Position numbers and translations under genes: made by a program
Shown: in pieces, positions 4,735-42,492 of the stretch
Numbering within the stretch: the first letter of the stretch is position 1
Layout of the letters: every line of letters starts with the position of its first letter
Notes under the pieces: model-generated
Told to the model about the DNA's origin: nothing
The model's input: the letters and a program-made list of their open reading frames with translations, nothing else
Database searches by the model: none
Source of the DNA: Oscillospiraceae bacterium
GTDB lineage: Bacteria > Bacillota > Clostridia > Oscillospirales > Ruminococcaceae
Assembly: GCA_009777415.1 (NCBI GenBank)
Contig: WRLX01000001.1
Coordinates: forward strand, 1-64,000
Direction of reading: 5' to 3'
DNA: 64,000 nt

Positions 4735-4812
4735 AGTTACCACATACCCTTTCTGCACAAACGTGCTGTTGAAAGTTTCGTTTTCCGCGTTTACGCAGGT
4801 TTACTTTCAAAC
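4735..4812 (-). promoter_or_regulatory. Leader repeat upstream of the collagen-like gene
   Basis: The unit starts at TTG 4810 (TTG AAA GTA AAC CTG CGT AAA CGC GGA AAA CGA AAC TTT) and contains GCACGTTTGTGC just before the SD AGAAAGGG. The small frame begins [13 protein letters not shown] but runs past the usual stop because the tail has changed. Confidence 0.75.
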
Positions 4813-7382: not shown

Positions 7383-8579
7383 GTGGCTTTATATTCATAT
7401 GTTGCAACTGATGCGAACGGACGTATTTCAAGAGGAAAGGAAACTGCCGAAGACCACCACGAGCTAATTGCAAGGCTCAAAACTAAGCAGCTTTTCTGTA
7501 CGTCCTACAAGGAATTAGGCGAAAGAGCCAAAGCAGTCGTTTATCGGTATAAGACCAAAGGGCTTGCGTTCCTTTGCCGCCAGTTGAGTTCCATGCTTGT
7601 TGCGGGGATTAGCGTTGTCCGCGCCTTGCACATTATGATTTCGCAGGAACAAAATAAAAAAGCGAAAATGTTACTTACCGAGATTTATGAGCAGGTTCAA
7701 ATGGGGCGTTCCTTGTCCGAGGCGATTGCCACTAAGCAGGGGGCTTTTCCCAATTTGTTTACGAGCATGGTTTCCGCGGGGGAGGCGAGCGGTAACTTAG
7801 ATATGATAATGGTTCGCGTTGCCGACCATTATGCCAAAGAAAATAAGACAAACAACAAAATAAAAAGCGCGATGATATATCCTATTATACTCGGCGTTTT
7901 GATGGTAGTCGTTGTTGTCGGGTTGTTCACTTTGATTTTCCCGATGTTTATGGATATGTTCGACAACGCCGATGATATTCCGCCGCTTTCTCGTGCGTTG
8001 GCATCAATAAGCAACTTTATGACTACTTATTGGTACATCCTTATCGGGGGGACTCTCGCACTTATTATAGGCATACGGACTGCCTTAAAAACGCCGAGCA
8101 TCAGATTCAAATTTGACAGGGCGATACTTAAACTACCCAAAGCGGGCGAGCTTTTGGGAATTATCTACACTGCGCGTTTTGCGCGAACAATGTCGAATTT
8201 GTTTGCGTCGGGTTTGCAAATGGTTGAGTGTATCGAAAAATCGGTTCAAACATTAGGCAACCTTTATATAACAGAGCGTTTTAAAGAGGTTGTGGAAAAT
8301 GTGAAACGGGGTGAACCCCTTTCGCAGGCACTTATTAAGATAAATGTATTTAATCCGATATTTACGGCGATGGTCGTTGTCGGTGAGGAGTCGGGGAGTT
8401 TGGATTCGATTTTGTCTAAGACAGCCGACTATTATGACGAGGAATCCGATATGGCGATTACCTCACTTGTCAGCATGATGGAGCCTTTGCTGATTATCGT
8501 ATTGGGCGGGGCGGTTGCGTTGGTTCTTGCGGGAATATTCCCGTTGATTTACGGTTCGATGGGTACTATGGGTTCATAG
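7383..8579 (+). CDS. pilC: Type IV pilus inner-membrane platform protein PilC (GspF family)
   Basis: PilC is the membrane platform on which the PilB and PilT motors act. The 398-residue length is normal. Two GspF domains are visible, each with the family pattern: LCRQLSSMLVAGISVVRAL...GRSLSEAI...F...MVSAGEASGNLD and ARTMSNLFASGLQMVECI...GEPLSQAL...F..MVVVGEESGSLD. Membrane segments lie at about 160-190, 215-235 and 365-392. The start is GTG 7383 after GGGGGTG. It heads an operon pilC-pilMN-pilO-pilX-pilV-pilW. Confidence 0.95.
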   Translation: MALYSYVATDANGRISRGKETAEDHHELIARLKTKQLFCTSYKELGERAKAVVYRYKTKGLAFLCRQLSSMLVAGISVVRALHIMISQEQNKKAKMLLTEIYEQVQMGRSLSEAIATKQGAFPNLFTSMVSAGEASGNLDMIMVRVADHYAKENKTNNKIKSAMIYPIILGVLMVVVVVGLFTLIFPMFMDMFDNADDIPPLSRALASISNFMTTYWYILIGGTLALIIGIRTALKTPSIRFKFDRAILKLPKAGELLGIIYTARFARTMSNLFASGLQMVECIEKSVQTLGNLYITERFKEVVENVKRGEPLSQALIKINVFNPIFTAMVVVGEESGSLDSILSKTADYYDEESDMAITSLVSMMEPLLIIVLGGAVALVLAGIFPLIYGSMGTMGS

Positions 8580-8633: not shown

Positions 8634-10217
8634 ATGTTATCATTCGACATTACCGACAAGCAAATCAAGCTTGTAAAAGGCTCACTTGCCGGGAGCAAAA
8701 TCCGTATTAATGCCGTTGAAACGCGTGATATTCCCGAGGGGGCAATCGTAAACGGGTATGTAAATGACTTTGCCGCAGTTGCCGATTTAATTACCGGAAT
8801 GACTTCTGCAAAGAAAATTTCCGATAAGGATATTGTCGTTTGTATTAACTCGGGTTCGATTCTCTACAAGGAGTTAGAGGTGCTTAAACCTAAGTCGCTG
8901 AAAAATACTGCGACTATTGAGGCTATGATTGTGGCTCAAATGGGGATTGCCACAGATTATAATGTTTCTTACTCTGTAGTAGGCGATGGGAATGCCGATG
9001 CGGACGGTAATCCTACTATAAAGGTAATGGCGACAGCCTGCCCGCAGAGAATGGTTGACGGGTATCAGACCTTGTTTGCTCAGGCGGGGCTGAAGCTTAC
9101 TCAAATCAACATCAGCAACAACTGCATTACCCGCCTTATTATGAACACACCAAAGCTCAAGGATGCTATGCCGTTTTTGTGCATCCAAGTGGACAGCGAT
9201 TTTGTCAACATTAATCTTTATGAAGACGGGCAGGTTTCGATCTCGCGCTACATAAAGATTGACCCCGCCGACTATGAAGATAACCCGGACTATGTTAATA
9301 TAGCCGTTTTTGACAACCTGTTCCGTATGATTCAATTTATCGGGCAAAGACCGGGGGCGAAGCCACTGAAACAAATCATGTTTTACGGGATAATTAAGGA
9401 CTTTGTTGCTCTTTCAAACTCTATTTCGTCCTTTAATGTCCCCGCACACGTTCTCACTATGCCCAATAATATAGTGAAATTCTGTGAGGTTGACTTTTCC
9501 AAATACGCTAATGCAATCGGTGCGTTTTATAAAGTTGACCCTATTATGGAACACGTAAACCTCCTTCAGTCTGTTGCGGTAAAATCTAAGCAGGGCGGGG
9601 GAATGTTCCCGGTTAATCTGCTTTTGACTGCGGGAATAACTGCCGGATTGGTTTTCGGCGTTTACATGATAATCGGGCGGGTCAACAACAACTTAGTCAA
9701 TCAGACAAACCAAGTCAATGAGTTGATTCGGGCGGGTGACTATGAAGCAAAACGAATGGAAATGGAGCTGATGCAGGATGTTCTCGGCAACTTTTCCAAC
9801 TATAAATATGCGGTAAAATTGGCGCAGGTTATGTTTGACTTTTTGCCGCGGGGGGATTTGCCGCAGATTTCAACGCAATTGCTCGATGCGGTTCGCGTAG
9901 TGGGCGAAAACCCGGAATTAGGCGGCGCGTTCCATGCTATAAGCGATGTTTCGTGGAGTGGCTACGATTTGCGGATGACTGTATATTGCGGCGACACTGT
10001 TTTCCCTGCCGATTATGTTGATGCGCTTAATCAGCTTGGATTTTTCGAGAATATAACTTACGGAGGATTTAGGACTGTTTCGGCGGGAGAAGTCGGCTAT
10101 GTTTCCGAGGGTTCAGTCCCCGGGGGCGGTTCGGTTATCGCATTTGAGCTTTCAATGAGGCTGAAAGGCGGTCATATATTTGAATCCGACGGTAGAAGAT
10201 ACGGCGCAGTTGATTAA
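8634..10217 (+). CDS. pilMN: PilM-PilN fusion protein of the type IV pilus assembly complex
   Basis: A 527-residue protein that joins two usually separate subunits. Residues about 1-315 match PilM, the actin-like cytoplasmic protein (N-terminal SFDITDKQIKLVKGSL, then IVVCINSGSILYKEL and later FLCIQVDSDFVNINLY). A membrane helix at about 325-347 (VNLLLTAGITAGLVFGVYMI) and an extracytoplasmic coiled-coil/ferredoxin-like part match PilN. A PilMN fusion is also known in Clostridioides difficile. PilM-N-O link the platform to the extracytoplasmic parts in organisms with an outer membrane; in Gram-positives they stabilise the machine. SD GAGGTG lies before ATG 8634. Confidence 0.88.
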   Translation: MLSFDITDKQIKLVKGSLAGSKIRINAVETRDIPEGAIVNGYVNDFAAVADLITGMTSAKKISDKDIVVCINSGSILYKELEVLKPKSLKNTATIEAMIVAQMGIATDYNVSYSVVGDGNADADGNPTIKVMATACPQRMVDGYQTLFAQAGLKLTQINISNNCITRLIMNTPKLKDAMPFLCIQVDSDFVNINLYEDGQVSISRYIKIDPADYEDNPDYVNIAVFDNLFRMIQFIGQRPGAKPLKQIMFYGIIKDFVALSNSISSFNVPAHVLTMPNNIVKFCEVDFSKYANAIGAFYKVDPIMEHVNLLQSVAVKSKQGGGMFPVNLLLTAGITAGLVFGVYMIIGRVNNNLVNQTNQVNELIRAGDYEAKRMEMELMQDVLGNFSNYKYAVKLAQVMFDFLPRGDLPQISTQLLDAVRVVGENPELGGAFHAISDVSWSGYDLRMTVYCGDTVFPADYVDALNQLGFFENITYGGFRTVSAGEVGYVSEGSVPGGGSVIAFELSMRLKGGHIFESDGRRYGAVD

Positions 10218-10282: not shown

Positions 10283-11266
10283 ATGGCACTTAGCAAAAAT
10301 GAACAAATCGCGCTTTATGTGGTGATTTTCTTGGTAATCGCGGTTGCGGGGGGGATTTTGTTTTTAATGCCCGAGTATAACAAAATTGAAGAGAACCGTA
10401 ATATGCTCAATACGCGGAAAGCGGAATATGCGCGGCTTGAGGAAGAACTCGGGCTCGAAAAGTTTGAAAATGTCGAAAAGAGCATTATTGCGGCTTATGA
10501 GGACGGGAGAGGGGCTTCAGCGGCTTTTTACGACAACGAGATGAGTTCTTATGAAGCTGACCGACTTATTCGGGACGTGTTGCGCGGGGTTAATCTTGAT
10601 ACCAATAATCTTGTTGTTAATCCGCTGACTACTCACAGCTTGGTTATGAGCATTTTTCGGGATATTGACATAACATACGGTATAAAGGATATGGCTACTA
10701 TCGGTTCAGCCGAGGACATGGTTTCGGAAGGGGGGGATGTTGTTGCCGAGACTTCGGCGGAGGGTGAAACTGTCGCCGAACCCACTGCAACAACTGCACC
10801 CGTTTCTGCGGCTGTTCCCGATGAGGATGCGGGAGATTTAGATGCAATGATGGCATTTATGATGAATGCCCCGCGAGTTCAAGCACTTGACTTTTTTGAG
10901 CAGAATATAACCAATCAAGCGAGGGCGGCCTATGTGGTCACTGCTATGAGGGAGTTTTTGGCTAACGAGTCGGAAACCGTTGCTGTGCAGAGTGTGCGGT
11001 TTGAAATGCTTATGACAAGGCAGGAGGCTTTCGCGCTTTCAATGCACGTCTATAACCTTAATAATGCATCGTATATTACGAGCATGACTAACCAAGAGTT
11101 TAACTCTTCTTCCACTGTTAATGCGGACGGGGAAGTTGTTGCGGCGGACGGCGGAGGCAGACGGGTTTATACCGTTGATATGATGTTCTTTATTGTCGAA
11201 CCGATGGAAGAACCTAACTTCGATTACGCAAATCGGTTTAATTGGGAAGCTGTTATTATTAATTAG
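10283..11266 (+). CDS. pilO: PilO-like type IV pilus assembly protein
   Basis: A 327-residue single-pass membrane protein. The N-terminal helix (about 8-28, IALYVVIFLVIAVAGGILFL) is followed by a coiled coil with an NKIEENRNMLNTRKAEYARLEEEL pattern, and then by a low-complexity Ala/Glu/Thr stretch (about 150-190) and an alpha/beta end. This layout and the place after pilMN fit PilO. Sequence similarity to PilO is weak by eye, so the name rests mainly on topology and gene order. Confidence 0.72.
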   Translation: MALSKNEQIALYVVIFLVIAVAGGILFLMPEYNKIEENRNMLNTRKAEYARLEEELGLEKFENVEKSIIAAYEDGRGASAAFYDNEMSSYEADRLIRDVLRGVNLDTNNLVVNPLTTHSLVMSIFRDIDITYGIKDMATIGSAEDMVSEGGDVVAETSAEGETVAEPTATTAPVSAAVPDEDAGDLDAMMAFMMNAPRVQALDFFEQNITNQARAAYVVTAMREFLANESETVAVQSVRFEMLMTRQEAFALSMHVYNLNNASYITSMTNQEFNSSSTVNADGEVVAADGGGRRVYTVDMMFFIVEPMEEPNFDYANRFNWEAVIIN

Positions 11267-11416
11267 CAAATCTATGTAACCGGAAAAACGTAACTTTATG
11301 AATTTCATGCTTGTGCAGAAAGGGCAAGGGTGACATTGTTTTAAGCAAATCTATGTAACCGGGAAAACGTAACTTTATGAATTTCATGCTTGTGCAGAAA
11401 GGGCAAGGGTAAAATT
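11267..11416 (+). promoter_or_regulatory. Tandem pair of leader repeats upstream of the PilX-like gene
   Basis: Two nearly identical copies (AGCAAATCTATGTAACCGG...CATGCTTGTGCAGAAAGGGCAAGGGT) follow each other with a period of about 79 nt. The first ends GGGTGACATT, the second GGGTAAAATT directly before ATG 11417. The small reading frame is broken in both, while the SD end is intact. Confidence 0.8.
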
Positions 11417-14400
11417 ATGGGGAAATATGTTAATTTTGGAGAAAGAATGTCGCGGGTTTCGTCGAAACGAGGCAGTGTGCTGTTTATCGTTTTGGTTATT
11501 ATGTCGTTTATGATTATTCTCGCTTCCGCCGTGTATTATGCGGTTCAAAACGGGAGGCAGAGCGTTGTCATGGACTATTCCGACCAACAGGCGTTTCAGA
11601 CGGCTAACGATGTACTTAACGCTATGGACAGGTACTTGACTACGTTAGTCCCCGATGCCTCATCGGGAATCGGCGACCTCAATACCGCGATTTCCACGCT
11701 TAAAACTAACTGCGGGCTTACTGTGATTCCCAGCCCGCCGCTATATCCGGCGCGGGATTGTACACTGCCGTTTGGTCACGCGGACTACGTAAACTGCCGC
11801 GCGGTAAGACCGAGCAACAGCCCCGACCCCGCACCCGTAGGTGAATACTGCGGCGCGGCGGTTTGGAACGATGCATCTAATATGGGGAAAACGCTCGACC
11901 AACTTATTGCCGAAAGTGAGTTACCGACAACCCTCGTTCCTTTTAAGGAAGGTGTGCATTACCTTCGAGGCAGACAAACCGTAAACAATCTGCGTGGCGG
12001 AGGCGACACCGTTGATGTACTCATTTACGTAAACAGGCACGGCGAAATTGTTATTGAAGTCACTGTTGAATATAACGGCAGACGTGTTAATTTGTCGCGG
12101 TTTTATTCTGCCGGCGACCAAAGGCAGTTCGCCGCGTATTGGCTTAACCCGGGTGTAACCGAAGGTAAAGCATTGCACTGGGAATGGGTTGAAAAAGATT
12201 TACCGCGACCGTCACTTGCGGACGGTACTTTTGACCCCTCTTATTCCCAAGTGAACGTAGGTACTACACTGTTTGACGCTTGTTGGCTCGGCGGGAACGC
12301 CAATAACGGCTATGCGAGGAGGCGGGTGAACGATATATGCCGCAAAGCGAATTTGTGTATTGACCGTAACGCCGATGAATGCCCGCAAGCATCGACAGGA
12401 GGTTGTTTCGACCCCACAAGAGTAGGCTCTGCACCTGGAAGCGGGAATGATAACGACCCCGATATAACAGGCGTAAACCAATATCAGCTTATAGGCGGTT
12501 GCCACTCCACAAACTGGGACGCTTGCCATATCGGCAACGGCTGGTGGATTTGGGTAGGCGACACTACCGGAACGGGCGGGCGACCCGCGGCAGGTTCTAC
12601 AGCTCCCGCCGGGACTCAATGGGCAGGTGTGCGTTGGGATAATTGGTGTCATGACGGCGAAATGTTGGGCAGTGCGTGTGTGTGCAGGGGTTCGGCTGTT
12701 GCGCCGTTTACTTACCCTAATAAAGCGTGGCTGATTGGGCGCGTACCCGGTCCGGCACCGGGCCAACCGCCGCCTGACCCTTCCGACGAGCCCGAACCGG
12801 TTGGCAGAAACGATGATGGGACTTATACCTACGGGCCTCCGTGCGTGTTCACGTGGAGGCAGAGGGATGCGTTTCACATTACGGGTATAGGTTTGAGTGA
12901 TGCGGAATCAATCAACACAATAGCAAACAGGGGAACAGCTTCCCCTACCCATTATGATACAAAGTGGACGGTTTTGCAGGATGTTCACGGAAGCAGACGC
13001 GGATATTTCAGAGGTGACATTTCGACCTTGGGCAGCTTGCTAATCGGGGACGTTTATATTGACAACCCGGTTATACGAACCAAACCCATTGAAATAACTG
13101 TAAGAGAAAACCTGCTCGTCGGCGGACAATCGGCAAAAGCACGCGGCAATCGCGAAATTAGCGGTTTGAATAACCTTGGGGGTGGCGCGACTACCGGGAT
13201 TGTGGAAGTGAAAGTCAAAGGCGATTTGTACACTTTCGGCGGCGGACATTTCGGGGATAATGTAACTTATTATGTCACGGACGGTGACTTGTTCCTTAAC
13301 GGCGCGTCTGCTCCCGGAAGCGCGACCTTTTATGTAGGCGTGAACAGCGGGGTTTATAACGGAACGGGCAATAACCCCTCAATAATTTCCGGCAGTGGTG
13401 AAACAAATAATTTACCTGCGCGGGTAGTGCGTATGACTGTGGAAGAGACGGCTCAAATTAATGATGCCATAGATTTCAGAACGGGGCCTACAGATACGGA
13501 TAAAAGTTGGCCGTCGCCTGCGACACCAAGGGATATGACCCCGCGGTGGGACGGTGCTAAGGCTGATGACTGGGGAACAAGCACCAATACCAATAACCCG
13601 TTGACTAATCAATATGACATTGCGATTAACGATACAATCAGAAACGGAATATTTTATATTAACGAAAGTGCTGTAATTCGTAACCCTGCCGGGGATGGTG
13701 TTGCATCCGGTTCTACGTTGCTGATTATAGTCGATACGGGATTGGAAGGAACGGTAGAATGTGATGCTACGTCTTCCTCCTGCCCCGAAAACCTGTCAAA
13801 CGGCGGCTCGGGTACTTGCGGCGAGAAGAAGCCGAAAGAAATCCACCTTGATTTACGCGCAAATACAACAGGCGGCAACTTCCGTTGGAGAAACGGTTTG
13901 GAAGACAGCGTTCGGCTTGCGGTTTTGACGTTGGGTAATGGTGTTGTGGTTATAAATTCCACTAACGTAACCTATCTTGCCGGGGGCGAAAACGGCGGAG
14001 ACGGAAGCGGACGACACCTCTTTGTAGGGCCGTTTAACTTAGCTGTCGGGCGCGACACCGCGAATACAGACTGGATTCAATGTCCGCGACTTATGGATTT
14101 CACGAGAGCTTTAAACACAGTAGGAGTCCCGACTCATGTACCTGGTACCACTTACCAAGGGTGTGTCAGTCCTATTTCTGCCGATATATGCGTTCCACCA
14201 GGTGGCGGGGCGTGCGTTGAGGGAGCGTGTATTCCCGTGAATGCGGGGTGTACTACCTCTAATTGTGTGTGCGGTCGCGGATGCGGTCGATGCGTTACAA
14301 CACCTGCCGGAAGACCGGACCATGAAGAAGTCGGCGGCGGCGATAACAGGAGATTATGGTGTGTGCCGGGTTGGTCACAGCACGGTATTAATTGCAGAGT

Positions 14401-15148
14401 AGGGCGACTCATCGGATGTGACCCCGCCACAGATTTCCACGAAAACGGTTGTATACGCCCGTGCGTTGACGGCGTGGTACACTACAACGGTTGTACCAAC
14501 GGATGTCAAGGCGGATACCATATGCCTGAGTGTATAGCAAGAAGTTGCCGTTGCCGCAGAGGGGATTGCCCGGCCGGAGCTGCCGGAGTTTGTAACGATG
14601 GTGGTCACATAACCCATGTAGCCGCTTGCCCGGTATTAGTTGTTTGTAATTTCACTAATGGTGCTAATCGGCATACGGGGGCTTGCCAGTGGGGTTGTTG
14701 GCTGAATGGTTTGTTGGATTCCGAGGGGAGCGGTGCAATTCGTTCCGATGATGAGCTTTTGGCACGCGGTATAAGGCAGCGTAATCACAGTTCGGCATTG
14801 AATTTGCACGTTTATTTGGTAAACAACGGCAATACTGCCGACAGGATTAGGTTTGGACAGTGGGCGTTCCATGCGGTAACGGTGTACGCGCCGAGAATGA
14901 GTTTTGTGTACACGGCGAGTGCCGGTGACCGAGTTGTGCTGTTCGGCAGTTTGTTTGTTGCACGCCTTGATATAGGTACAATGGACCACTTTATAAGCAT
15001 GATGCCGGGTGGCGGGATTGGTATCCCACCGACTCCCTATGACCCGCCCGGATTCGGCGCACCCGATGTAAGCGGCAGTGGCGCGGGAAGTGATACGTTT
15101 AGTCCTTATGACGGGATTGGAAGCGGTAGCGACCCGGGTCGGCGGTAA
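11417..15148 (+). CDS. Giant PilX-like minor pilin with Cys-rich extracellular region
   Basis: A 1243-residue protein. The N-terminal basic stretch and membrane helix (KRGSVLFIVLVIMSFMIILASAVYYAVQNGRQS, about 16-48) resemble the N-terminus of PilX/PilV-type proteins that lack a classic prepilin site. The rest is extracellular: regions with paired cysteines at about 95-330, a beta-helix-like middle (about 520-900) with polar repeats, a second Cys-rich block at about 915-1090 (CVCGRGCGRC, CTNGCQGGYHMPEC, CRCRRGDC), and a Pro/Gly/Ser end. Canonical PilX is about 150-200 residues, so this is greatly enlarged, probably as an adhesive tip component. Start ATG 11417 follows the leader SD; the track start 11390 is inside the repeat. 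Function is inferred from context. Confidence 0.72.
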   Translation: MGKYVNFGERMSRVSSKRGSVLFIVLVIMSFMIILASAVYYAVQNGRQSVVMDYSDQQAFQTANDVLNAMDRYLTTLVPDASSGIGDLNTAISTLKTNCGLTVIPSPPLYPARDCTLPFGHADYVNCRAVRPSNSPDPAPVGEYCGAAVWNDASNMGKTLDQLIAESELPTTLVPFKEGVHYLRGRQTVNNLRGGGDTVDVLIYVNRHGEIVIEVTVEYNGRRVNLSRFYSAGDQRQFAAYWLNPGVTEGKALHWEWVEKDLPRPSLADGTFDPSYSQVNVGTTLFDACWLGGNANNGYARRRVNDICRKANLCIDRNADECPQASTGGCFDPTRVGSAPGSGNDNDPDITGVNQYQLIGGCHSTNWDACHIGNGWWIWVGDTTGTGGRPAAGSTAPAGTQWAGVRWDNWCHDGEMLGSACVCRGSAVAPFTYPNKAWLIGRVPGPAPGQPPPDPSDEPEPVGRNDDGTYTYGPPCVFTWRQRDAFHITGIGLSDAESINTIANRGTASPTHYDTKWTVLQDVHGSRRGYFRGDISTLGSLLIGDVYIDNPVIRTKPIEITVRENLLVGGQSAKARGNREISGLNNLGGGATTGIVEVKVKGDLYTFGGGHFGDNVTYYVTDGDLFLNGASAPGSATFYVGVNSGVYNGTGNNPSIISGSGETNNLPARVVRMTVEETAQINDAIDFRTGPTDTDKSWPSPATPRDMTPRWDGAKADDWGTSTNTNNPLTNQYDIAINDTIRNGIFYINESAVIRNPAGDGVASGSTLLIIVDTGLEGTVECDATSSSCPENLSNGGSGTCGEKKPKEIHLDLRANTTGGNFRWRNGLEDSVRLAVLTLGNGVVVINSTNVTYLAGGENGGDGSGRHLFVGPFNLAVGRDTANTDWIQCPRLMDFTRALNTVGVPTHVPGTTYQGCVSPISADICVPPGGGACVEGACIPVNAGCTTSNCVCGRGCGRCVTTPAGRPDHEEVGGGDNRRLWCVPGWSQHGINCRVGRLIGCDPATDFHENGCIRPCVDGVVHYNGCTNGCQGGYHMPECIARSCRCRRGDCPAGAAGVCNDGGHITHVAACPVLVVCNFTNGANRHTGACQWGCWLNGLLDSEGSGAIRSDDELLARGIRQRNHSSALNLHVYLVNNGNTADRIRFGQWAFHAVTVYAPRMSFVYTASAGDRVVLFGSLFVARLDIGTMDHFISMMPGGGIGIPPTPYDPPGFGAPDVSGSGAGSDTFSPYDGIGSGSDPGRR

Positions 15149-15156
15149 TCCCCCCT

Positions 15157-15186
15157 GCCCGTTGGGCATCCCCCTTCCGGAGGGGG
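15157..15186 (+). other. GC-rich hairpins between two pilin-like genes
   Basis: GCCC-GTT-GGGC (15157-15167) and CCCCCTTCCGGAGGGGG (15170-15186) lie between the PilX-like and PilV-like genes. There is no T-run, so an mRNA processing or stability element is more likely than a terminator. Confidence 0.5.
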
Positions 15187-15238
15187 CGGCACGGAGTGAG
15201 CGGGTGCGAAAGAGCTAATTTTACAGGAGGAAAACCAT

Positions 15239-16537
15239 ATGAAAAAACTAAACTCAAAAAAGGGATTCGCGCTTGTTGAATGCGTGGTTGCTATCGGTGT
15301 GTTTACAATTATGTCGTTGATAGTGGCTATGCTGTTAAATGCGGCGATAACCACCCATAGGAGCAATATTAGCGAGACCCGCTCCTTACGGGCGCAACGG
15401 AATGACTTTATGGAGGGGGTTGCGGGTGGAAATATGCTCGACAGGGGGGACGCAACTAAACCGAGCATTGAGTTCAGCTTTGACGACGGTGCCGGCGGAA
15501 CAATCAGCCCGACATATGATTTCGATGCCGCGAATGTCTCCGCAAATGCGGAGGGGCTTCAGTTGACCGAGTATGAAACGAGTATGCTGGGGGATAGGCG
15601 GCAGACTGATAATATTCAGCCGATAAGCCTTTCACAAGTCCCGTGGAATGCAATTGCCGTTGGTCGTGTTGCGGGTGTGGCAATGGGTTCGCCCAATGCC
15701 ACGGTATTGAATAACAGCCCTATGACGCAACGCTGGCTGGGGGATGGCGGAGTTGCCGGAATCCCGTTTGTGAACACTAAAGAGTTGTTCTCGTATATAA
15801 TCCCGCCTCAAAGCGGGACTAATAACGGGGATGTCGGTTTTATTCCCGCACAGTCTGTCATTTGGGTTAATTCCAATGCGGGGGCGAAAAGCCTTAAAGA
15901 GTTCCGTGATACAATCGGTACCCCGGTGTCGATGCCTAATGTTGCCGATTCGGCTCATTTGGATTGGTTCGGGCAAAGACCCCTCGACACTGTGACACCG
16001 GGTACAAGTGTGCTTTATGCGAACATGGTTCAGCTTTTAATCAATAAGGACATACCGCCTGCGAGGCATAATCCGTCTTGTCCTTTGGGCGAGACTGCTC
16101 CGCCCGCACCGAATTGCACTTGTGAACCCTGCCGAATAGTTTTGCACGTTCCCGTGCGGGATATTACGGGGGCGACACCGATTGACGATCCTAAAGGTGT
16201 TATCGGGGTTGCGTTTCCGAATCATTTGCAAGGCAAGGTGTGGTTTGAAACAGTCCCCACGGCTGTTAAACACTGGCTTAATCCCGCGGTCGTAGGTTCG
16301 AGGGAACGGCGTTATGACATAATATTGGAAAGACCTGTCGGGCAGGTGCGATTTGATGTGTTTAATTTGGCATTGATTACAAGAGAGCCAATCAGCCGTG
16401 ATTGGAGAGACGGAAATGTTACGACTCATACTAAAGCCGTTGCCGAGACGGGCAGCATTAAGAAATGGTTGCAGTTAGAAATTTGCAGTGCTTGCGGAAA
16501 CGCACCGTGTGAAAGACAAGCCGGTTGCGGATGGTGA
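15239..16537 (+). CDS. PilV-like minor pilin (prepilin)
   Basis: A 432-residue prepilin. The class III signal KKGFALVECVVAIGVFTIMS (about 7-26) has the G-F cleavage site and Glu at position 5 of the mature protein. PilD should cut and methylate it. The extracellular part is much longer than in ordinary minor pilins and has few cysteines until the C-terminal C-x2-C motifs (CTCEPC and CSACGNAPC). The start has a strong SD (ACAGGAGG). It sits between the giant PilX- and PilW-like genes and probably forms one priming or tip complex with them. Confidence 0.8.
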   Translation: MKKLNSKKGFALVECVVAIGVFTIMSLIVAMLLNAAITTHRSNISETRSLRAQRNDFMEGVAGGNMLDRGDATKPSIEFSFDDGAGGTISPTYDFDAANVSANAEGLQLTEYETSMLGDRRQTDNIQPISLSQVPWNAIAVGRVAGVAMGSPNATVLNNSPMTQRWLGDGGVAGIPFVNTKELFSYIIPPQSGTNNGDVGFIPAQSVIWVNSNAGAKSLKEFRDTIGTPVSMPNVADSAHLDWFGQRPLDTVTPGTSVLYANMVQLLINKDIPPARHNPSCPLGETAPPAPNCTCEPCRIVLHVPVRDITGATPIDDPKGVIGVAFPNHLQGKVWFETVPTAVKHWLNPAVVGSRERRYDIILERPVGQVRFDVFNLALITREPISRDWRDGNVTTHTKAVAETGSIKKWLQLEICSACGNAPCERQAGCGW

Positions 16538-16586
16538 AGCCTGTACTGCCTGTGCTATGTAATAATAATCAAGGAGGAGAAGGGTT

Positions 16587-19500
16587 ATGAGGTTTGATTT
16601 TAAGAGACTGTTGTCTAAGAAAGGGCTGACACTTGTTGAGGTGATGATAGCTACGGTTATTTTCAGCTTGATTACGCTTGCCGCGTTTACTATGTATCAG
16701 CCTATTGTCGAGATTGCCGGTTCAGTCCGCTCCGACAACGATATGCAAAGAATAGTCAATGCATCGGAAAACTATGTTGCACGTCAACTCAGGAATGCCG
16801 TAGAAATTGAGGTTCACAGGGTTGATGACCCCTTCACCGAAGTTTTGACGGATACGTCAATAATGGACCCTTTCACTAACGGCAGAACCAAACCGGGCGA
16901 TGACCCGCGTGCGCTTATAATATGGGACACGTCCACCTTGGCTACACCGGGGGCGACTCTTATTTACGATGTCCGGCTGCACGACACCGCTCCTTCGCCG
17001 AGTGTGATAAGCATTCCGACTACTATGGCAGAGCTTGAAGCGTTTCGCGTGTTCAATACCGCGTTTTATTCCGATATTGAGCTTGGAGTTAATGTCGGAT
17101 TGAACGAGCTTGTTCCAGACAACCAAGTACGCGACCGGACTTTCCTGCAACTGCAATTGGAAGCTCGCCGCGATGGTGTAATCAATTTGGCATCGGGTGC
17201 AACAACTCACGCTAACATATTGCTGTCGTGGATAGGGCTTGCCGAAGGCGGTGACCAAACCAAGTTTGAGGCGGGTCAGCTTAATAAAGCGAGTTTGATT
17301 GAAACCTCGCCTACAGGTAATGTATGGGTAATCCTTTACCATAACAACATAGACATGGACCGCCCGCCGCCGGAGATTCCCGTTTCGGATACTCCATGTC
17401 TCGCTGCTTGTACCGGTGTGCCGTGCGACACTTCTGTTAGCGGACACCCGGTTAATTGCCCCGGAACACTTCCGTGTTGGTCGTGCGTTGAGAGATGTCT
17501 GCCGGTGTGCAGTGTTTCCGACCCATCCTACGTTTGTCCGCCTCCGACTGTGGCGACAGATTGTTTCCGTTCGGGTTGCCTCAATTGCTTGAGTTCGCCG
17601 CCCAACGGCTTACCTTGCTATCCCGATTGCGGTCTCGGTTGTGTTACTCCGCCCAACGCAGTGGGTCTCGGTTGCGGCGAAAACTGGATTGGTGATATTT
17701 GCATATCCGAAGTCTGCTGTGATTGCGGCGACTTGGCAAATTGCATGGTTTGCCGTTATCGTTGCGTTGAAGTAGCCGGGGAGTATGGTTGCAGGAAGCA
17801 AATAACAGGGCTTATTTGCGACAATTGCTGTATCGGTTGCAAAATGCCGCCGCACTTAGGTTGCGTTTGCCCGCCTTGCCCGGTTTCCGGGTCTCATGAT
17901 TATGTAGAACTTTCTTCTGTTCCATCGACTTGCGAGGTAGGCGGCAACGGTTCTGTGACCTTTGAGTGTACCCATTGCGGTGATACTACGATTCATGCAC
18001 TTCCGCTTGCTGACCATGATTACACCGACATCAACTGGGAGAAACTCGATGATGCGCAACATCGCAGAAACTGCACTTATTACAGCGGTTGCGGCGGCTT
18101 TGACACGGCTTCTCATATATGGAGTTCGTACTCAGCTCCCGATGAGCGTGGTCAGCGCAGACGCTACTGTACGGTGTTTGACTGTGATGCCGAGCAGACG
18201 GGCGGCGTAGTCGCGAGCATTACCGATTGTGAATGTGAACCTGTAGTGTCCGACGGAGGAAGACACGATTGTCTGCGAATCGTGACTGTCAGCAATCGCG
18301 GTGAGACGGCAAGTGCCTTTACATGGACGGTAGTAACAGATGTCCCCGCGAGGTCGATTTTAAGGCGAGTAAATGCGGTTGTTACCGAGGGTTCGGTCCT
18401 TCGAGTTGTCCCGCTGAATACCGAAACGGCTCAACTCACGTCAACGGGAAGTGCCTTGGAAATACGCGCCGAAAGCGACTATGTATTTGAAGTTGTAATC
18501 TCGGTCATTGATTGTAACCACTCGGGTTACGAACATTCCGAAGTACCCGATAAAGAAGAAACTTGTACCGAATTCGGTTGGAAAGACCGATTGGTTTGCG
18601 AAAATTGTGAGGGCATTGTAAACGAGTTTGAGTCTTTATTGTTGCCCTTGGGTCATGAGGCCGATTACGACAATTTCGATGCTTGGGAGCAACGTAGCCC
18701 CGCAACTTGCGAAGAACCCGAATATTCATATGTAAATTGCGTGAGGTTTGATGATTGCGGATACCGTTTTGACTCGGAAATCGGCGATGACAGTTTGGGC
18801 GGACATCAATTAGAAGATGTTTCACGTATCGGGGAAAGATGTTTTGGCGGAATTGTAACGCGGCAGTGTGTCCGCGAAATAGGCGATGAAATATGCGGCG
18901 CAACGAGTACCGAACCTGTCCCGCCGGAAACGCCCGAATATGACGAAGACGATGATGCTTTCACAATAGTAAAAGATGAACCCACTTGTACCGAAGACGG
19001 CGGAACGGAGTACGTTTGCATCCATTGCAACGGGGATGCAGACGGGCACAGAAGGTCTGCTTCCGTGATACCCGCTTTGGGTCACGATGATGAACACGAT
19101 GATTGGGCGGTTAAACGAGCTGCAACCTGTTTTGAAGACGGTGAGGAAGCCCTCGTTTGCGGTCGTAACGGTTGCCGCGAAGAAATTGACACTCGGGTGC
19201 TTGTGTTCGAAATAGTGTTTATCGCCGTTGACGATGTACCCGCTACTTGTACGACTGACGGTTACATTGACGGGGAGGTTTGTGAGGTTTGTGAGGGCGA
19301 ATTCGATGGACACAGGCGCGGCGGCACTGTTGTGGATGCACTTGGTCATGACAGGGACGATTGGGACGTTGTTTCGCCTTCCGTTGTAGCAAGGTGTATT
19401 TCAGAAGGCAAAAAAGTAAGAACGTGCAGACGTGCGGAATGCGGCGAAAGTGACGAGTTGATATTGCCCGCTACGGGTGTGCATGATTTCGACTACGACT

Positions 19501-20897
19501 CCGGCACTCCGAAAGTATTCCAAAGTGTGAACGACAGTAGCCACGCTTTAGTGTGTAGAACTCCCGGTTGCGATGAGCCGGACACTGTTACCACTCCGCA
19601 TGAAACGAGTACAAGGGAAGCTACCTGCCGCGAACGCTCGCTGACTGTTTGCGAGAGCAACGGTTGCGGTTGGAGCGAGGAAGGTGTTTCGACTTTGCCG
19701 CATGATTACAGCGGCGGGTGGAGGTATTTGAGTTCAACCCCATATCATGTAAAATCCTGTGTAGGGAATCCTGCGGGTACTGTTTGCGGAGAGCATTCAA
19801 CTGACCTTGACGACAGGGAACTTTGCGATGTGTCATGGACTCCGGTTGCCACCGATGATACACGTTGTGAGGCAAGTTGTGCGGCTGATTGCGGTTATCC
19901 GCTGTCACGAGATTTACACGACTTTGTCGGCGGTGAGTGTACCAGATGTGAGTATGTGCAAGGAGAAGCTGTGCTTGTGTGGGAATTAATCAGGCGCAAT
20001 AATGCAACGAATAGTTGGCATACAAATCATGGCGGTAACGATGACCAATGTCATCTACTTGAATTTGAAGCGCGTATCAGGAATGTCGGTGCTGCGGAAT
20101 CTGCCAACCCGGCTACGATACAAGTCACCCTTCCCAATGGCGGAAGGTGGCGCGAAACCCAAAATAACGGAAATAATGGTTTGAGTACTGCTAATACCAC
20201 TCAAGGAGGAATCACATTCACCCTTTCTTACACAGGCACTATTGCGGCGGGGGCGGCTACTCCGGCATCTACAATGTGGATTAGGATAAACTTCTGTACC
20301 CAAATCGCCGCGTGTGGTGTTCCGAGCAGCGGAGGAATTATTACTGCAAGCAGTGTAATAGGGGCACATGATTACACATGGGCAGACTTAAATGCGGAAC
20401 AGCACGCAGGAACTTGCGGCAATTGCGGAAATACACAAAACCAAAACCATACTTGGGGCGAGTGGTTACCGACAACAGCACCTGTGGGTGGTACTCAAAC
20501 TCAAAGTTGCACAGGCATCGGTTGTGTGAGAACAAGGGATAGAATAAGACCCGAGCCTATGAGCGCTACAGTAACGCAGGTACGCAGGGAGTGGGGTAAC
20601 GTAATTGTTCTTAATGTGCAAATTAACAACCCGGATTCAGTCCCTGTTAGTGAATGGGAACTCAACTTTGATGTTCCAAGCGGTTCGCCTAACGCTAACA
20701 ACACTACTAATCCCGACTTTGGTGGTGGCACCGGCGGTCTCCCATGGCGTGTAACAGGCGGCAACCTCTTGACAATATCAAGCAATGGTAATTTGTCAGT
20801 TCCGCCGGGGCAAACCACGTATGTGTTTATGTTGCGAGACTACCAACCCTCGAATGCGCAATCATGGAGTACTTCTACTGTTACGTTCAGACCTTGA
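16587..20897 (+). CDS. Giant PilW-like minor pilin with Cys-ribbon repeats and C-terminal carbohydrate-binding-like domain
   Basis: A 1436-residue prepilin. The signal KKGLTLVEVMIATVIFSLITLAAF (about 11-34) has the G-L cleavage site and Glu5. From about 265 to 430 there are dense Cys motifs. From about 430 to 1130 many repeats follow the pattern ATC-x2-DG-x-C-x2-C, often ended by ALGHD (for example ATCTTDGYIDGEVCEVCEG), a repeat type common in large Firmicute surface proteins. Two beta-sandwich segments near the end, about 1140-1250 and 1330-1436 (NVIVLNVQINNPDSVPVSEW and later VPPGQTTYVFML), look like CBM2-type cellulose-binding modules. It probably displays a glycan-binding tip. Strong SD AAGGAGG. 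Domain assignment of the C-terminus is inference. Confidence 0.78.
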   Translation: MRFDFKRLLSKKGLTLVEVMIATVIFSLITLAAFTMYQPIVEIAGSVRSDNDMQRIVNASENYVARQLRNAVEIEVHRVDDPFTEVLTDTSIMDPFTNGRTKPGDDPRALIIWDTSTLATPGATLIYDVRLHDTAPSPSVISIPTTMAELEAFRVFNTAFYSDIELGVNVGLNELVPDNQVRDRTFLQLQLEARRDGVINLASGATTHANILLSWIGLAEGGDQTKFEAGQLNKASLIETSPTGNVWVILYHNNIDMDRPPPEIPVSDTPCLAACTGVPCDTSVSGHPVNCPGTLPCWSCVERCLPVCSVSDPSYVCPPPTVATDCFRSGCLNCLSSPPNGLPCYPDCGLGCVTPPNAVGLGCGENWIGDICISEVCCDCGDLANCMVCRYRCVEVAGEYGCRKQITGLICDNCCIGCKMPPHLGCVCPPCPVSGSHDYVELSSVPSTCEVGGNGSVTFECTHCGDTTIHALPLADHDYTDINWEKLDDAQHRRNCTYYSGCGGFDTASHIWSSYSAPDERGQRRRYCTVFDCDAEQTGGVVASITDCECEPVVSDGGRHDCLRIVTVSNRGETASAFTWTVVTDVPARSILRRVNAVVTEGSVLRVVPLNTETAQLTSTGSALEIRAESDYVFEVVISVIDCNHSGYEHSEVPDKEETCTEFGWKDRLVCENCEGIVNEFESLLLPLGHEADYDNFDAWEQRSPATCEEPEYSYVNCVRFDDCGYRFDSEIGDDSLGGHQLEDVSRIGERCFGGIVTRQCVREIGDEICGATSTEPVPPETPEYDEDDDAFTIVKDEPTCTEDGGTEYVCIHCNGDADGHRRSASVIPALGHDDEHDDWAVKRAATCFEDGEEALVCGRNGCREEIDTRVLVFEIVFIAVDDVPATCTTDGYIDGEVCEVCEGEFDGHRRGGTVVDALGHDRDDWDVVSPSVVARCISEGKKVRTCRRAECGESDELILPATGVHDFDYDSGTPKVFQSVNDSSHALVCRTPGCDEPDTVTTPHETSTREATCRERSLTVCESNGCGWSEEGVSTLPHDYSGGWRYLSSTPYHVKSCVGNPAGTVCGEHSTDLDDRELCDVSWTPVATDDTRCEASCAADCGYPLSRDLHDFVGGECTRCEYVQGEAVLVWELIRRNNATNSWHTNHGGNDDQCHLLEFEARIRNVGAAESANPATIQVTLPNGGRWRETQNNGNNGLSTANTTQGGITFTLSYTGTIAAGAATPASTMWIRINFCTQIAACGVPSSGGIITASSVIGAHDYTWADLNAEQHAGTCGNCGNTQNQNHTWGEWLPTTAPVGGTQTQSCTGIGCVRTRDRIRPEPMSATVTQVRREWGNVIVLNVQINNPDSVPVSEWELNFDVPSGSPNANNTTNPDFGGGTGGLPWRVTGGNLLTISSNGNLSVPPGQTTYVFMLRDYQPSNAQSWSTSTVTFRP

Positions 20898-21220: not shown

Positions 21221-22012
21221 CTACCCCATTAACCCCAAATACCAAGCAATCATTTTATCGCCGTATAGGTATGCCGCGGCGATTCCGACTGCGAGGAATG
21301 GGCCAAACGGGATTGCCGTGCCTTTTGCGGGGAGTGCGTCTTCGCTTTTGTAGACGTGTTTGTCGGTTGCTTTAAAAACCGCGCCGACGATTGCGCCGGA
21401 GAAAACGCCTATTAATGCGGCGGGGATTATGTTCCAACCTAAGAGCAACCCGGCTGCCGCCATTAATTGAATGTCCGCTCCGCCCATTGCGCCGAACAAT
21501 GCCAAAACTGCGAAAGGGATTGAAATTGCTATCGCGCCGATTAGGTGTTCGTGCCACGGAATGTCGGTTACTCCGAATAAAGACAACCCCATTGCGATAA
21601 TGCCGAGAGCGGCGATTGAAATAGGGAAGATGTACTCAATCTCGCCTGTGTCAATGTCGAGGAAAGACAGGCAGATTAAAATAGGGAACAAAACGACGGC
21701 GAATACCAAATTAATGCTCAGTCCGAGAGCGAGAAACGCAATTGCGTAAGAAATGCCGCAAAGGGATTCGACAATTGCATAGCGCGGCGAGACTTTTACT
21801 TTGCAGTAGCGACACTTCCCGCCTAAGCAAATCCAGCTTATAACGGGGAACAAGTCATACCAAGCAAGCACATGACTGCATGACATACAGCGGGAACGTC
21901 CTTTTACAACCTGCTCTTTTTTGGGGGTTCTGTAGATGACTACGTTGAGGAAACTGCCGATAATTGTCCCGTAAATGCACATTACAACTGATACAAAAAT
22001 AAAAAAAACCAT
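21221..22012 (-). CDS. pilD: Prepilin peptidase / N-methyltransferase PilD
   Basis: PilD cleaves prepilin leader peptides and methylates the new N-terminus. The 263-residue protein has 6-8 membrane segments, the N-terminal family motif IIGSFLNVVIYRTP (about 17-30), the two CxxC pairs of the methyltransferase zinc site (CMSC and CRYC), and the two catalytic aspartates in LDIDTGEI (about 116-123) and GGADIQ (in place of GxGD, a variant seen in Firmicutes). It is transcribed opposite to the pil operon but should process the three prepilin-like proteins encoded here. Confidence 0.94.
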   Translation of the reverse strand: MVFFIFVSVVMCIYGTIIGSFLNVVIYRTPKKEQVVKGRSRCMSCSHVLAWYDLFPVISWICLGGKCRYCKVKVSPRYAIVESLCGISYAIAFLALGLSINLVFAVVLFPILICLSFLDIDTGEIEYIFPISIAALGIIAMGLSLFGVTDIPWHEHLIGAIAISIPFAVLALFGAMGGADIQLMAAAGLLLGWNIIPAALIGVFSGAIVGAVFKATDKHVYKSEDALPAKGTAIPFGPFLAVGIAAAYLYGDKMIAWYLGLMG

Positions 22013-22095: not shown

Positions 22096-23793
22096 ATGCT
22101 TCAAAATATACCAATAGGTCAACTGCTTGTAGAAAGCGGGTTTATTACATCCGAGCAACTCCAAAAGGCGTTAGTTAAGCAAAAAGAATTGGGGACTAAA
22201 TTAGGTGACACACTACTCAGTCTCGGCTATATTTCGGAAACGCAGTTTGTACACGCGCTTTCGTCACGGCTGAAAGTCCCGTATGTTGACTTGGCTACAA
22301 CCGATATAAATGTTGAGGCGGTCAAAAAAATTACAGAGGCAGAGGCGCGAAAGCATAACCTCATCGCTTACAGAATAACTAACGGGCGGCTGTGCGTTGC
22401 GTCAAACGACCCTGTAAACTTTTTTGTGTTTGAGGACTTAAAAGTCAAGACAGGGATGGAAATTCACCCTATGTTGGCAACTAAGACAGCGATTCTCGAC
22501 GCGATTAACAAAGCCTACTCCGATTCGGAGCAGGAAGAGGTAATGAGCGATATTGACAAGGAATACGATGCAAGCGCGGAACTCCTGAAAGCACAGCAAG
22601 AGGCGGCGGCATCCGATGAACGCGTAGACAACGCACCTATTGTTAAGCTCGTAAACACGCTTATAGAGTCGGCTTATCGTTCAAACACGTCTGACATACA
22701 TATTGAGCCGTTTAAAGACAGAACGAGGATTCGATTCAGGATAGACGGCGAGTGTTTGGAAAAGATGATGGTAAAACCCGCTGTACACTCATCGCTTGTC
22801 ACCCGCCTTAAAATCCTCGCGGCAATGAATATAGCTGAAAAGCGTATTCCGCTTGACGGGCGTTTCGGCGTAAAGATTGACGGGGTTAATCTTGACTTGC
22901 GTGTATCAAGTGTGCCTACTGTTTACGGGGAAAAGGTTGTTATCCGTCTGCTTTCGACTGCCGACGAAAAAACGAGAAGAGTCACCGACTTAGGCATGAG
23001 CCAGTATAACTATGAAATGTTTAAGCAAATTATCCGTTGCCCGCACGGGGTAATGTTAGTAACGGGTCCGACCGGTTCGGGTAAATCTACTACGCTTTAT
23101 GCAACACTCGGCGAGCTTTCTAAAATCAACAACAATGTCGTCACCTGTGAAGACCCGGTGGAGAAAAAAATCGATGGCGTTAATCAATGTCAAATGAACG
23201 TAAAAGCCGGATATACTTTTGCAATTGCACTTCGCGCAATTTTACGTCAAGACCCCGACATAGTAATGGTAGGGGAAATACGTGACGGCGAAACAGCCGA
23301 TATTGCAATCCGCGCCGCGATTACGGGTCACTTGGTTTTGTCAACGCTTCATACAAATGATGCGGTAGGTTCTATTTTGCGCCTTGTGGACATGGGAATC
23401 GCCCCGTACATGGTTGCATCCTCTTTGGTGGGTGTAATTGCACAGCGTCTTGTGAAACTGCTTTGCAACGAATGCGCGCAAGAGGTAACCCTTGAAGACC
23501 CCGCCGATTTAAAATTAGTGGGGAGTACCGTCCCGGTAAAAGCGAGGACGGTTAAGCATGACGGATGCAGGGCTTGCAGGAACACCGGTTATGCGGGAAG
23601 AACGGCTATTTTTGAAATAGTTATTCCGAGCAACGCAATTAAAGAATGTATTTCCAAAAACGGCACGGCGGAAGAAATCGGGCAGCTTGCAAAACAAAAC
23701 GGCACAAAACTCCTCCGCGATAATGTAACGGAAATGGTTTTAGAAGGAAAAACAACAATGGAAGAGCTTGTAAAAGCGACATACACGGTTTAA
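22096..23793 (+). CDS. pilB: Type IV pilus extension ATPase PilB
   Basis: PilB is the hexameric ATPase that drives pilus assembly. The 565-residue protein has the N-terminal MshEN domain (about 1-150, GQLLVESGFITSEQLQKAL), the Asp box region (SDIHIEPFKDRTRIRFRIDG), Walker A GPTGSGKST at about 321-329, the glutamate/Walker B region ILRQDPDIVMVGEIRD, the His box region TGHLVLSTLHTND, and a C4 zinc site (CNEC...CRAC). SD in AAGAAAGGACCGGTGTAAAA resembles the tail of the leader repeat. pilT follows. Confidence 0.97.
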   Translation: MLQNIPIGQLLVESGFITSEQLQKALVKQKELGTKLGDTLLSLGYISETQFVHALSSRLKVPYVDLATTDINVEAVKKITEAEARKHNLIAYRITNGRLCVASNDPVNFFVFEDLKVKTGMEIHPMLATKTAILDAINKAYSDSEQEEVMSDIDKEYDASAELLKAQQEAAASDERVDNAPIVKLVNTLIESAYRSNTSDIHIEPFKDRTRIRFRIDGECLEKMMVKPAVHSSLVTRLKILAAMNIAEKRIPLDGRFGVKIDGVNLDLRVSSVPTVYGEKVVIRLLSTADEKTRRVTDLGMSQYNYEMFKQIIRCPHGVMLVTGPTGSGKSTTLYATLGELSKINNNVVTCEDPVEKKIDGVNQCQMNVKAGYTFAIALRAILRQDPDIVMVGEIRDGETADIAIRAAITGHLVLSTLHTNDAVGSILRLVDMGIAPYMVASSLVGVIAQRLVKLLCNECAQEVTLEDPADLKLVGSTVPVKARTVKHDGCRACRNTGYAGRTAIFEIVIPSNAIKECISKNGTAEEIGQLAKQNGTKLLRDNVTEMVLEGKTTMEELVKATYTV

Positions 23794-23850: not shown

Positions 23851-24927
23851 ATGAATAATAAGATTGATATTAATACGATTCTTGATTTAGCGCGGGACAT
23901 GGGTGCATCCGACGTACACTTTACTGCGGGGCTTCCCCCTATTATACGTCTTCACGGGAGCATTAAAAAGCTTCCTGAATATCCCGATTTTACAGAACCT
24001 ATGATACTTGAAGTTGTTAATCAGATTGCCTCCGATGTACACAAGGATATTATCAGAAGCGGCAAAGATGCGGACTTCAGCTATGTTACCGCATCCGGAT
24101 TCAGGAACAGGGTCAATGTTTTCCACCAGCGCGGGTATCACGCGATTGCGCTTCGTTTGTTGCGCAACGAGATTCCCACGCCGAGCGAGCTAAAATTGCC
24201 GGCAGTCATGAGCGATTTTGCATTACGTCCGCGCGGTCTTGTACTGGTAACAGGGCCTACGGGTTCGGGTAAATCGACAACGCTTGCGGCAATGGTTGAC
24301 CATGTAAACCGCAACAAAAATTCCCACATAATTACTATAGAAGACCCGATAGAGTATTTACACACTCATAAGCAGTCAATGATAAATCAGCGTGAAATCA
24401 ATGTTGACGTAGGCGACTTCGCGCTTGCATTACGTGCCGCGTTGCGTGAAGACCCCGATGTTATTCTCGTTGGGGAAATGCGTGACTTTGAGACAATAAG
24501 CGCGGCGATAACCGCGGCGGAAACGGGGCATTTGGTAATGTCAACGCTGCATACTACAGGCGCGGCGGAAACTCTTGACCGTATAATCGACGTTTACCCG
24601 CCGTCATCGCAAGGTCAATGCCGTTCACAGCTTGCGACTAACTTAGTCGCGGTAGTGTCACAGACATTAGTTCCGACTGCCGACGGGAAAGGGCGGGTAG
24701 CCGCTTTTGAAATAATGGCGACAAATGATGCAATCAGTGCGATGATTCGCGAGAACAAAATCTTCCAAATCCCCTCTGTAATTACCACGGGAAGAACGCT
24801 CGGAATGAGAAGCCTCGACCAAGACTTGGCACGGCTTACCCGTATGGGGACGATTACCGAAACAACGGGACTATCACGATGTCAAGACCCTAAAGAGTAT
24901 AAAAGGTTTTTGTCAATGCCGATGTAA
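23851..24927 (+). CDS. pilT: Type IV pilus retraction ATPase PilT
   Basis: PilT depolymerises the pilus, giving twitching and pulling force. The 358-residue length is typical. Motifs: Walker A GPTGSGKSTT at about 133-142, ITIEDPIEYLH, the Walker B stretch ALREDPDVILVGEMRD, and AAETGHLVMSTLHT. The presence of both PilB and PilT implies dynamic pili. No major pilin gene was seen, so the main pilin is probably encoded elsewhere. Confidence 0.96.
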   Translation: MNNKIDINTILDLARDMGASDVHFTAGLPPIIRLHGSIKKLPEYPDFTEPMILEVVNQIASDVHKDIIRSGKDADFSYVTASGFRNRVNVFHQRGYHAIALRLLRNEIPTPSELKLPAVMSDFALRPRGLVLVTGPTGSGKSTTLAAMVDHVNRNKNSHIITIEDPIEYLHTHKQSMINQREINVDVGDFALALRAALREDPDVILVGEMRDFETISAAITAAETGHLVMSTLHTTGAAETLDRIIDVYPPSSQGQCRSQLATNLVAVVSQTLVPTADGKGRVAAFEIMATNDAISAMIRENKIFQIPSVITTGRTLGMRSLDQDLARLTRMGTITETTGLSRCQDPKEYKRFLSMPM

Positions 24928-24931: not shown

Positions 24932-25092
24932 AGAACCGGTCCCAATAGAAAATCGCACCGTTTAAACGGCAAATTTCCCGCCATACTGCGTTGAAATTTT
25001 ATTAAATATCAGCGGATATTCGCAAAAATTTCGCCTTGTCTGACGAAAAATTTGCTCGTTTCTCCGGCACGTTTCCTATTGGGACCGGTTCT
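24932..25092. mobile_element. Palindromic MITE-like element (TIR AGAACCGGTCCCAATAG)
   Basis: Ends AGAACCGGTCCCAATAGAAA / TTTCCTATTGGGACCGGTTCT form an almost perfect inverted repeat. The core (CCGCCATACTGCG...ATATCAGCGGATATT...CGCCTTGTCTGACG) is the same as in the 1886 element although the ends differ. It lies between the pilT stop and the pilT terminator. Confidence 0.75.
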
Positions 25093-42416: not shown

Positions 42417-42420
42417 ACTT

Positions 42421-42492
42421 TTACACCATTCCTTTCCGGCAATAACAAGCCATAAAAGTGCGTTTACCGCACAACATCAGATTTATTTTCAA
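42421..42492 (-). CDS. Leader-repeat upstream ORF, 23 residues, directly before glgC
   Basis: From TTG 42492 the frame reads [13 protein letters not shown] and ends CYCRKGMV with TAA at 42423-42421, exactly 24 codons, 4 nt before the glgC ATG. It carries the glgC SD (GGAAAGGA) inside its last codons. One of six intact copies of the family; translation is inferred from frame and length conservation. Confidence 0.5.

Follow-up and report, generated by a model that had tools for sequence, protein, structure and literature searches.

A giant, cysteine- and histidine-rich PilW-like minor pilin in a type IV pilus locus of an Oscillospiraceae bacterium

We analyzed a stretch of 64,000 nucleotides (the window) from an Oscillospiraceae bacterium, positions 1 to 64,000 of contig WRLX01000001.1, which is contig C1 of a 162-contig, 1.78-Mb genome with an estimated completeness of 86.8% (label G000). 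Open reading frame (ORF) calls and Pfam searches place, around positions 11417-20897, the gene order pilC-pilM-pilN/O-X-V-W-pilD-pilB-pilT, with pilD on the opposite strand (Table 1). The ORFs of the PilX-like, PilV-like and PilW-like minor pilins are intact and codirectional, and congeners keep the same order of pil genes. For the PilN/PilO-like protein, the Pfam scan gave no family above cut-off. A preliminary description of this DNA had suggested a retractable pilus, in agreement with which PilB and PilT ATPases and a prepilin peptidase were found together with an enlarged set of minor pilins. It had also correctly stated that the window lacks a major pilin; the genome search it suggested revealed one of 179 amino acids (aa) on contig C68 (N_methyl, E 1.1e-9), and in relatives the major pilin gene adjoins pilT on its downstream side. 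The gene content supports assignment of the locus to a complete monoderm type IV pilus set, of the retractable type IVa.

Two giant cysteine-rich minor pilins had been noticed at this locus. Their sizes (1243 and 1436 aa) and cysteine numbers (44 and 83) stand, but only for the PilW-like protein, about five times longer than normal, is the giantism unusual. Across 71 genomes of the genus, the frames found with a PilW profile measure 227-372 aa almost everywhere. The exceptions are the window (1442), G066 (2110), G064 (654) and G065 (481), the first three corresponding to proteins of 1436, 2100 and 646 aa. In one published training set, Gram-positive pilins have a median length of 144 aa, the longest reaching 333 aa (PMC3244431). 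The window protein begins as a type IV pilin, with a class III signal peptide, the Gly and Glu5 residues and a hydrophobic helix, and it scores above the cut-offs of PF07963 (24.0 versus 21.2 bits) and TIGR02532 (20.2 versus 16.3 bits). Its residues 1-252 are homologous to the short PilWs, which do not possess the long tail.

The long forms are confined to one clade, in which elongation is graded. In a PilX tree the window species pairs with G066 (support 90/90); G009 joins them next (96/96), and G003, G068 and G064 complete a clade of six species (100/100). There, PilW measures 271 aa in G009, 319 aa in G068 (3 Cys), 351 aa in G003 (21 Cys), 646 aa in G064 (25 Cys), 1436 aa in the window (83 Cys) and 2100 aa in G066 (118 Cys), a series along which the growth of a putative tip adhesin can be followed directly. 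Over their first ~930 residues, from the pilin module through the cysteine block, the two giants are collinear at 38% identity. A search of 294 other genomes of the order (a sample without G066 and G003) did not turn up this block. In guanine-plus-cytosine content, overall and at third codon positions, the PilW tail is not strikingly different from the other parts of the operon.

Beyond the cysteine block, two kinds of repeats can be recognized in the tail. One reads P-x-T-C-x8-11-C-x2-4-C, in many cases with a P-x-L-G-H segment behind it, and the other H-x3-C-x2-8-C-x2-12-H, after which W or F is frequent. Their abundance is not random: C-x8-11-C-x2-4-C occurs 6 times in the window tail (mean 1.2 and maximum 5 in 500 shuffles) and H-x3-C-x2-8-C-x2-12-H 4 times (mean 0.14, maximum 2), while the G066 protein has 12 (mean 2.6) and 4 (mean 0.17), respectively. 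Such sets of three Cys and one His, or two Cys and two His, look more like metal ligands than disulfide pairs. A sequence search of the PDB with the cysteine block and the repeats returned nothing significant. VKOR and DsbB gave no match in this genome, a result that fits metal ligands. As the genome is 87% complete, as the search did not include DsbA and as the known partners of DsbA can be missing from clostridia (PMC12453122), the result does no more than lean away from enzymatic disulfides.

The PilW-like protein had further been described as ending in one or two beta-sandwich segments resembling the carbohydrate-binding module CBM2. This holds for the last segment but not for residues 1126-1260, which gave no Pfam match, and a double module was accordingly discarded. 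CBM_2 scores 15.1 bits (E 0.029) in the whole protein, and residues 1325-1436 taken alone reach 23.3 bits (E 8.4e-5, profile positions 6-79), just short of the 24 bits that Pfam sets as gathering cut-off. The best sequence match of this end in the PDB is CBM2a of Cellulomonas fimi (1exg, E 0.034). When a low-confidence AlphaFold2 model of the same end (pLDDT, the predicted local distance difference test, 51.4) was submitted to Foldseek, ranks 1-5 were all CBM2 (E 7.5e-4 to 3.7e-3, TM scores 0.46-0.61). Because the alignment behind the model held no canonical CBM2, this result provides largely independent support for the fold. The end of the G066 PilW is also weakly CBM2-like (13.6 bits, E 0.09).

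With CBM2a from the C. fimi protein Cex (PF00553), the PilW end shares a probable beta-sandwich pattern, the core Trp, the W17 position and the motifs N-x-D/G-S...W...P-x-G and, near the end, P-x-G-Q/G-T; it differs by its score and by its surface. As is well established for CBM2a, its binding face is formed by the tryptophans W17, W54 and W72. In an alignment with 1exg and canonical CBM2s of the genus, only the first of these three surface aromatics is kept (W1336), and those of W54 (WNG) and W72 (Y/WNG) are missing. W1387, a loop residue, could be a candidate substitute. A CBM2 profile built from 30 sequences of the genus gives this end 7.8 bits, a score within the background of 2000 shuffles, the best of which reached 9.9. 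Strong CBM2s are present in neither this genome nor G066, and 50 of the 71 congeners have one over cut-off. Since the W54 and W72 equivalents are gone, cellulose binding is unsupported, and we abandoned a canonical cellulose-binding CBM2 as the leading interpretation on the strength of the missing aromatics and of the background-level profile score. The same two results leave the polysaccharide-binding tip that had been suggested for this pilus without support. Of the two features by which the preliminary description wished that idea to be judged, the C-terminus appears to have the first, a CBM2-like fold, and lacks the second, the aromatic binding surface.

Turning to the PilX-like protein, a profile of 14 proteins finds it in 62 of the 71 genomes, with complete frames of about 720-1360 aa in nearly all. 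As large forms run throughout the genus, its size is ordinary, and we no longer consider it an anomaly; only its cysteine-rich inserts are special. Its leader is class III-like, RG/SVLFI (KRG/SVLFIVLVIM), and, as in GspK, Glu5 is missing; this is true of every copy found in the genus, whereas PilV and PilW retain Glu5. No Pfam or NCBIfam family matches the protein, including N_methyl with its GFxxxE motif. The alignment displays a conserved N-terminus and end, species-specific inserts and a middle part with repeated V-x-GD motifs, which are suggestive of a beta-helix-like head as a genus-wide trait. A PDB sequence search with the PilX profile found nothing significant. When the cysteine contents of the X, V and W proteins were compared over 27 loci, those of X and W were not significantly correlated (rho 0.17, p 0.39).

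Several other exported proteins of this genome deserve mention. Contig C68, which bears the major pilin gene, also encodes a cysteine-rich exported protein of 1080 aa (60 Cys) with beta-helix-like repeats (L161:1193-4435, minus strand). At positions 61289-63451 of the window lies a C1-family peptidase with a Lectin_like domain and a CxxC-rich linker (14 Cys, 5 CxxC). This protease had been presented as dockerin-like. It does carry degenerate dockerin-like DALEILKYLVG repeats, and similar tails occur on a contig C62 protein and on the GH5 protein mentioned below, but these repeats have no DxNxDG calcium loops. We rejected a dockerin-bearing protease because PF00404 found no match in it at E <= 0.1; one clear dockerin is encoded elsewhere in the genome, on contig C16. 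Finally, contig C2 encodes a secreted protein of 1728 aa with two GH5 domains (1.9e-97) and dockerin-like repeats (L160:1298-6484). A glycan-degrading life style is plausible, and the twin-GH5 protein fits the use of plant polysaccharides. As for habitat, G066 is a termite-gut bin. The public relatives nearest by PilX are the metagenome-assembled genomes Glo450_bin1, Nt197P3bin121, Nt197P3bin88 and Nt197P1bin1, all Oscillospiraceae bacterium; three of these four gut metagenome bins come from a humus-feeding termite, Nt197 standing for Neocapritermes taracua (PMC7024585). A similar origin of the window DNA is inferred from these relatives.

We propose, with a probability of roughly 0.6, that PilW is a modular pilin, drawn out to unusual length by Cys/His ribbons, and that it serves as a tip adhesin on the retractable type IVa pilus of an uncultured bacterium. 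On the model of GspK-GspI-GspJ, the PilX-like, PilV-like and PilW-like proteins would form a complex at the pilus tip, which the PilX-like protein, devoid of Glu5, would cap. An ordinary PilW pilin module of ~250 residues would there bear a tail of ~1,180 residues made of the 31-Cys block, about ten ribbon-like Cys/His repeats and at least two beta-sandwiches, the last of them CBM2-like. Display at the tip is the natural reading since such a tail hardly fits inside the shaft, and an argument of this kind has been made for PilB of Streptococcus sanguinis (PMC8179133). Most probably the tail juts out as a stalk that metal sites or disulfides hold together and that would tolerate a reduced environment. 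Its end modules may contact particles, glycans or other cells, after which PilT would pull the cell in. Pilins of 1436 and 2100 residues, with stepwise addition of Cys/His repeats within a single clade, would illustrate the length to which a pilus tip can grow, and their tails would exemplify metal-site stalks on a surface fibre of an anaerobe. One could go further and imagine, for this clade with its members from termite guts, a new class of giant pilins in which CCCH/HCCH metal knuckles replace disulfides or isopeptide bonds in the stalk of an anaerobe, in which end modules are shuffled, a remodelled CBM2 among them, and in which the retractable fibre grabs partner cells or particles of humus or wood. 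We put this broader picture forward tentatively, as an attractive possibility rather than an expectation.

Several points weigh against PilW as a tip adhesin. The names X, V and W come from position and N-terminal motif, without a family match. The AlphaFold2 model of the PilW end, made from two sequences (the window and locus L125), is weak, and that of the last 311 aa is poor (pLDDT 45.7), Foldseek being uninformative with the latter. Moreover, cysteine-rich segments are found in further exported proteins of the genome, namely the C68 protein and the window protease, and are consequently no evidence for a role specific to the pilus. The whole tail might then be generic, assembled from the cysteine-rich linkers and beta-sandwich fillers of this lineage, and serve as a spacer or protease-resistant stalk without a specific ligand. 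Supporting this idea, the C68 protein with its 60 Cys shares a segment with the G066 PilW (E 2e-5), the protease carries the cysteines and CxxC pairs listed above and the CBM2-like end has lost its binding residues. Yet the order of the tail is collinear between two species at 38% identity, which suggests selection, and both giants finish in a CBM2-like sandwich and not in a random module; we regard a generic tail as a rather improbable alternative. The locus could also be an enzyme-exporting pseudopilus of the type II secretion system (T2SS) kind, the large minor pilins being cargo-handling tips, which would again count against a tip adhesin. The organism appears monoderm, however, it has PilM and a PilT-like ATPase, and its genome encodes a PilA-type major pilin at another place, so that this option is highly improbable in spite of the GspK-like features of the PilX-like protein (no Glu5, extra sequence in the head) and of an architecture common to T2SS pseudopilins.

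One may also ask whether a functional CBM2 at the end of PilW lets the pilus take hold of cellulose or xylan with its tip. The score of the isolated domain, its Foldseek matches and the twin-GH5 protein are in favor of this, as is the implication of type IV pilins in the adhesion of Ruminococcus albus and R. flavefaciens to cellulose (PMC3672088). We nevertheless judge it unlikely: two of the three binding aromatics have no equivalent, the genus profile stays at the level of shuffled sequences, this genome and G066 are without a strong CBM2, contrary to most congeners, and the pil genes of R. albus 7 did not respond to cellulose (PMC4300822). A link to cellulose, if real, would mean that bacteria in termite guts couple the retraction of pili to their attachment to lignocellulose. 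The evidence at hand does not favor such a link, nor cellulose as the PilW ligand.

Table 1. Positions, in the window, of the pilus genes, of the segments of their products and of the intergenic repeats.
Feature	Position	Strand	Basis
PilC platform protein (T2SSF)	7383-8579	+	Pfam PF00482, 1.9e-58
PilM, C-terminal extension probably PilN-like	8634-10217	+	Pfam PilM_2, 1.2e-9
PilN/PilO-like, 327 aa, one N-terminal membrane segment	10283-11266	+	position and membrane segment; same place in relatives
~77-nt leader repeat in two tandem copies (79 nt apart), up to the PilX start codon, each with Shine-Dalgarno-like GTGCAGAAAGGGCAAGGGTAAAA	11265-11416	+
PilX-like (GspK-like) minor pilin, 1243 aa, 44 Cys	11417-15148	+	ORF, family alignment, genus profile
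PilX-like insert 1, aa 270-475, Cys-containing, differs among species	12224-12841	+	alignments
PilX-like Cys-rich insert 2, aa 890-1098, at this position in this species only	14084-14710	+	alignment
PilV-like minor pilin, 432 aa, Glu5 present	15239-16537	+	TIGR02532 16.6 bits, over cut-off; PF07963 22.2 bits (genome search)
Giant PilW-like minor pilin, 1436 aa, 83 Cys	16587-20897	+	N_methyl 2.7e-5, over cut-off; PilW profile E 7.3e-72
PilW pilin module, aa 1-252, no Cys in aa 1-220	16587-17342	+	conserved with ordinary PilW
PilW cysteine block, aa 265-435, 31 Cys	17379-17891	+	Cys count; collinear in G066
PilW region of Cys/His repeats, aa 436-1125, including a sandwich-like stretch around aa 560-645	17892-19961	+	motif counts
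PilW beta-rich segment, aa 1126-1260	19962-20366	+	strands in AlphaFold2 model, construct pLDDT 45.7
PilW H-x3-C-x2-C-x7-H site, aa 1273-1288	20403-20450	+	motif count
PilW C-terminal CBM2-like beta-sandwich, aa 1325-1436	20559-20894	+	Pfam CBM_2, 1exg match, Foldseek
PilD prepilin peptidase	21221-22012	-	PF06750, 1.4e-31, and PF01478
PilB extension ATPase	22096-23793	+	T2SSE, 1.5e-127, and MshEN
PilT-like retraction ATPase	23851-24927	+	T2SSE, 6.4e-48; PilT name from position and N-terminal sequence
~77-nt repeat sites	2061, 5701(-), 10260, 11265-11416, 23827, 33404, 38309(-), 42419-42572(-), 46980-47148, 48324-48545, 49284-49803, 57431-57534, 58363, 60063-60276
D7-D9 repeat sites	1886-2011, 2878-2949, 24932-25057, 51033-51073

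Two families of intergenic repeats were observed besides the genes. A leader repeat of ~77 nucleotides (nt), AAATCTACGTAAATGSGGAAAACGAAACTTTTATAGCACATATTGTGCAGAAAGGACAAGGGTAAAA-n2-ATG, precedes many genes, as single or tandem copies of 74-79 nt; its last copy gives the Shine-Dalgarno sequence and abuts the start codon (13 of the 22 core matches in the window). It has at least 75 matches genome-wide and none in Rfam. The other family (D7-D9) consists of elements of about 40-120 nt, 72-93% alike among some copies. In addition, a collagen-like G-x-y protein (positions 3919-4758, minus strand; PF01391, 2.2e-15) is encoded beside parB and istB-like genes.

Parallels can be drawn with known pilus systems. 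R. albus and R. flavefaciens are ruminococci of fibre-digesting guts with the same kind of pil locus, but the protein implicated there is a small pilin and not a modular minor pilin (PMC3672088). The tip minor pilins GspK and PilX of T2SS and type IVa pili resemble our PilX-like protein in the lack of Glu5, in an extra domain inside the head and in a gene order with PilV/GspI and PilW/GspJ equivalents. In the latter, however, the protein of 720-1360 aa has a probably beta-helix-like GD-repeat head in place of a compact alpha domain and no PDB relative by profile. The closest parallel is offered by the modular pilins PilB (with a von Willebrand factor A module) and PilC (with a lectin module) of S. 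sanguinis, in which an N-terminal pilin module is also combined with non-pilus modules, in a monoderm host, with a predicted tip position and a role in adhesion that, in our case, is proposed (PMC8179133, PMC9934059). PilB of S. sanguinis, though, has a mass of 50.5 kDa and one identifiable module (PMC8179133, PMC9934059), whereas the tail of our PilW runs to ~1,180 aa (1,850 in G066), mostly of Cys/His repeats, and contains no module over a curated cut-off. A published survey of modular pilins gives a protein of 860 residues as its extreme in the number of additional domains (PMC8179133). Modular pilins are known already, and the PilW described here, for which we do not claim the greatest length on record, is a new and extreme variant of them.

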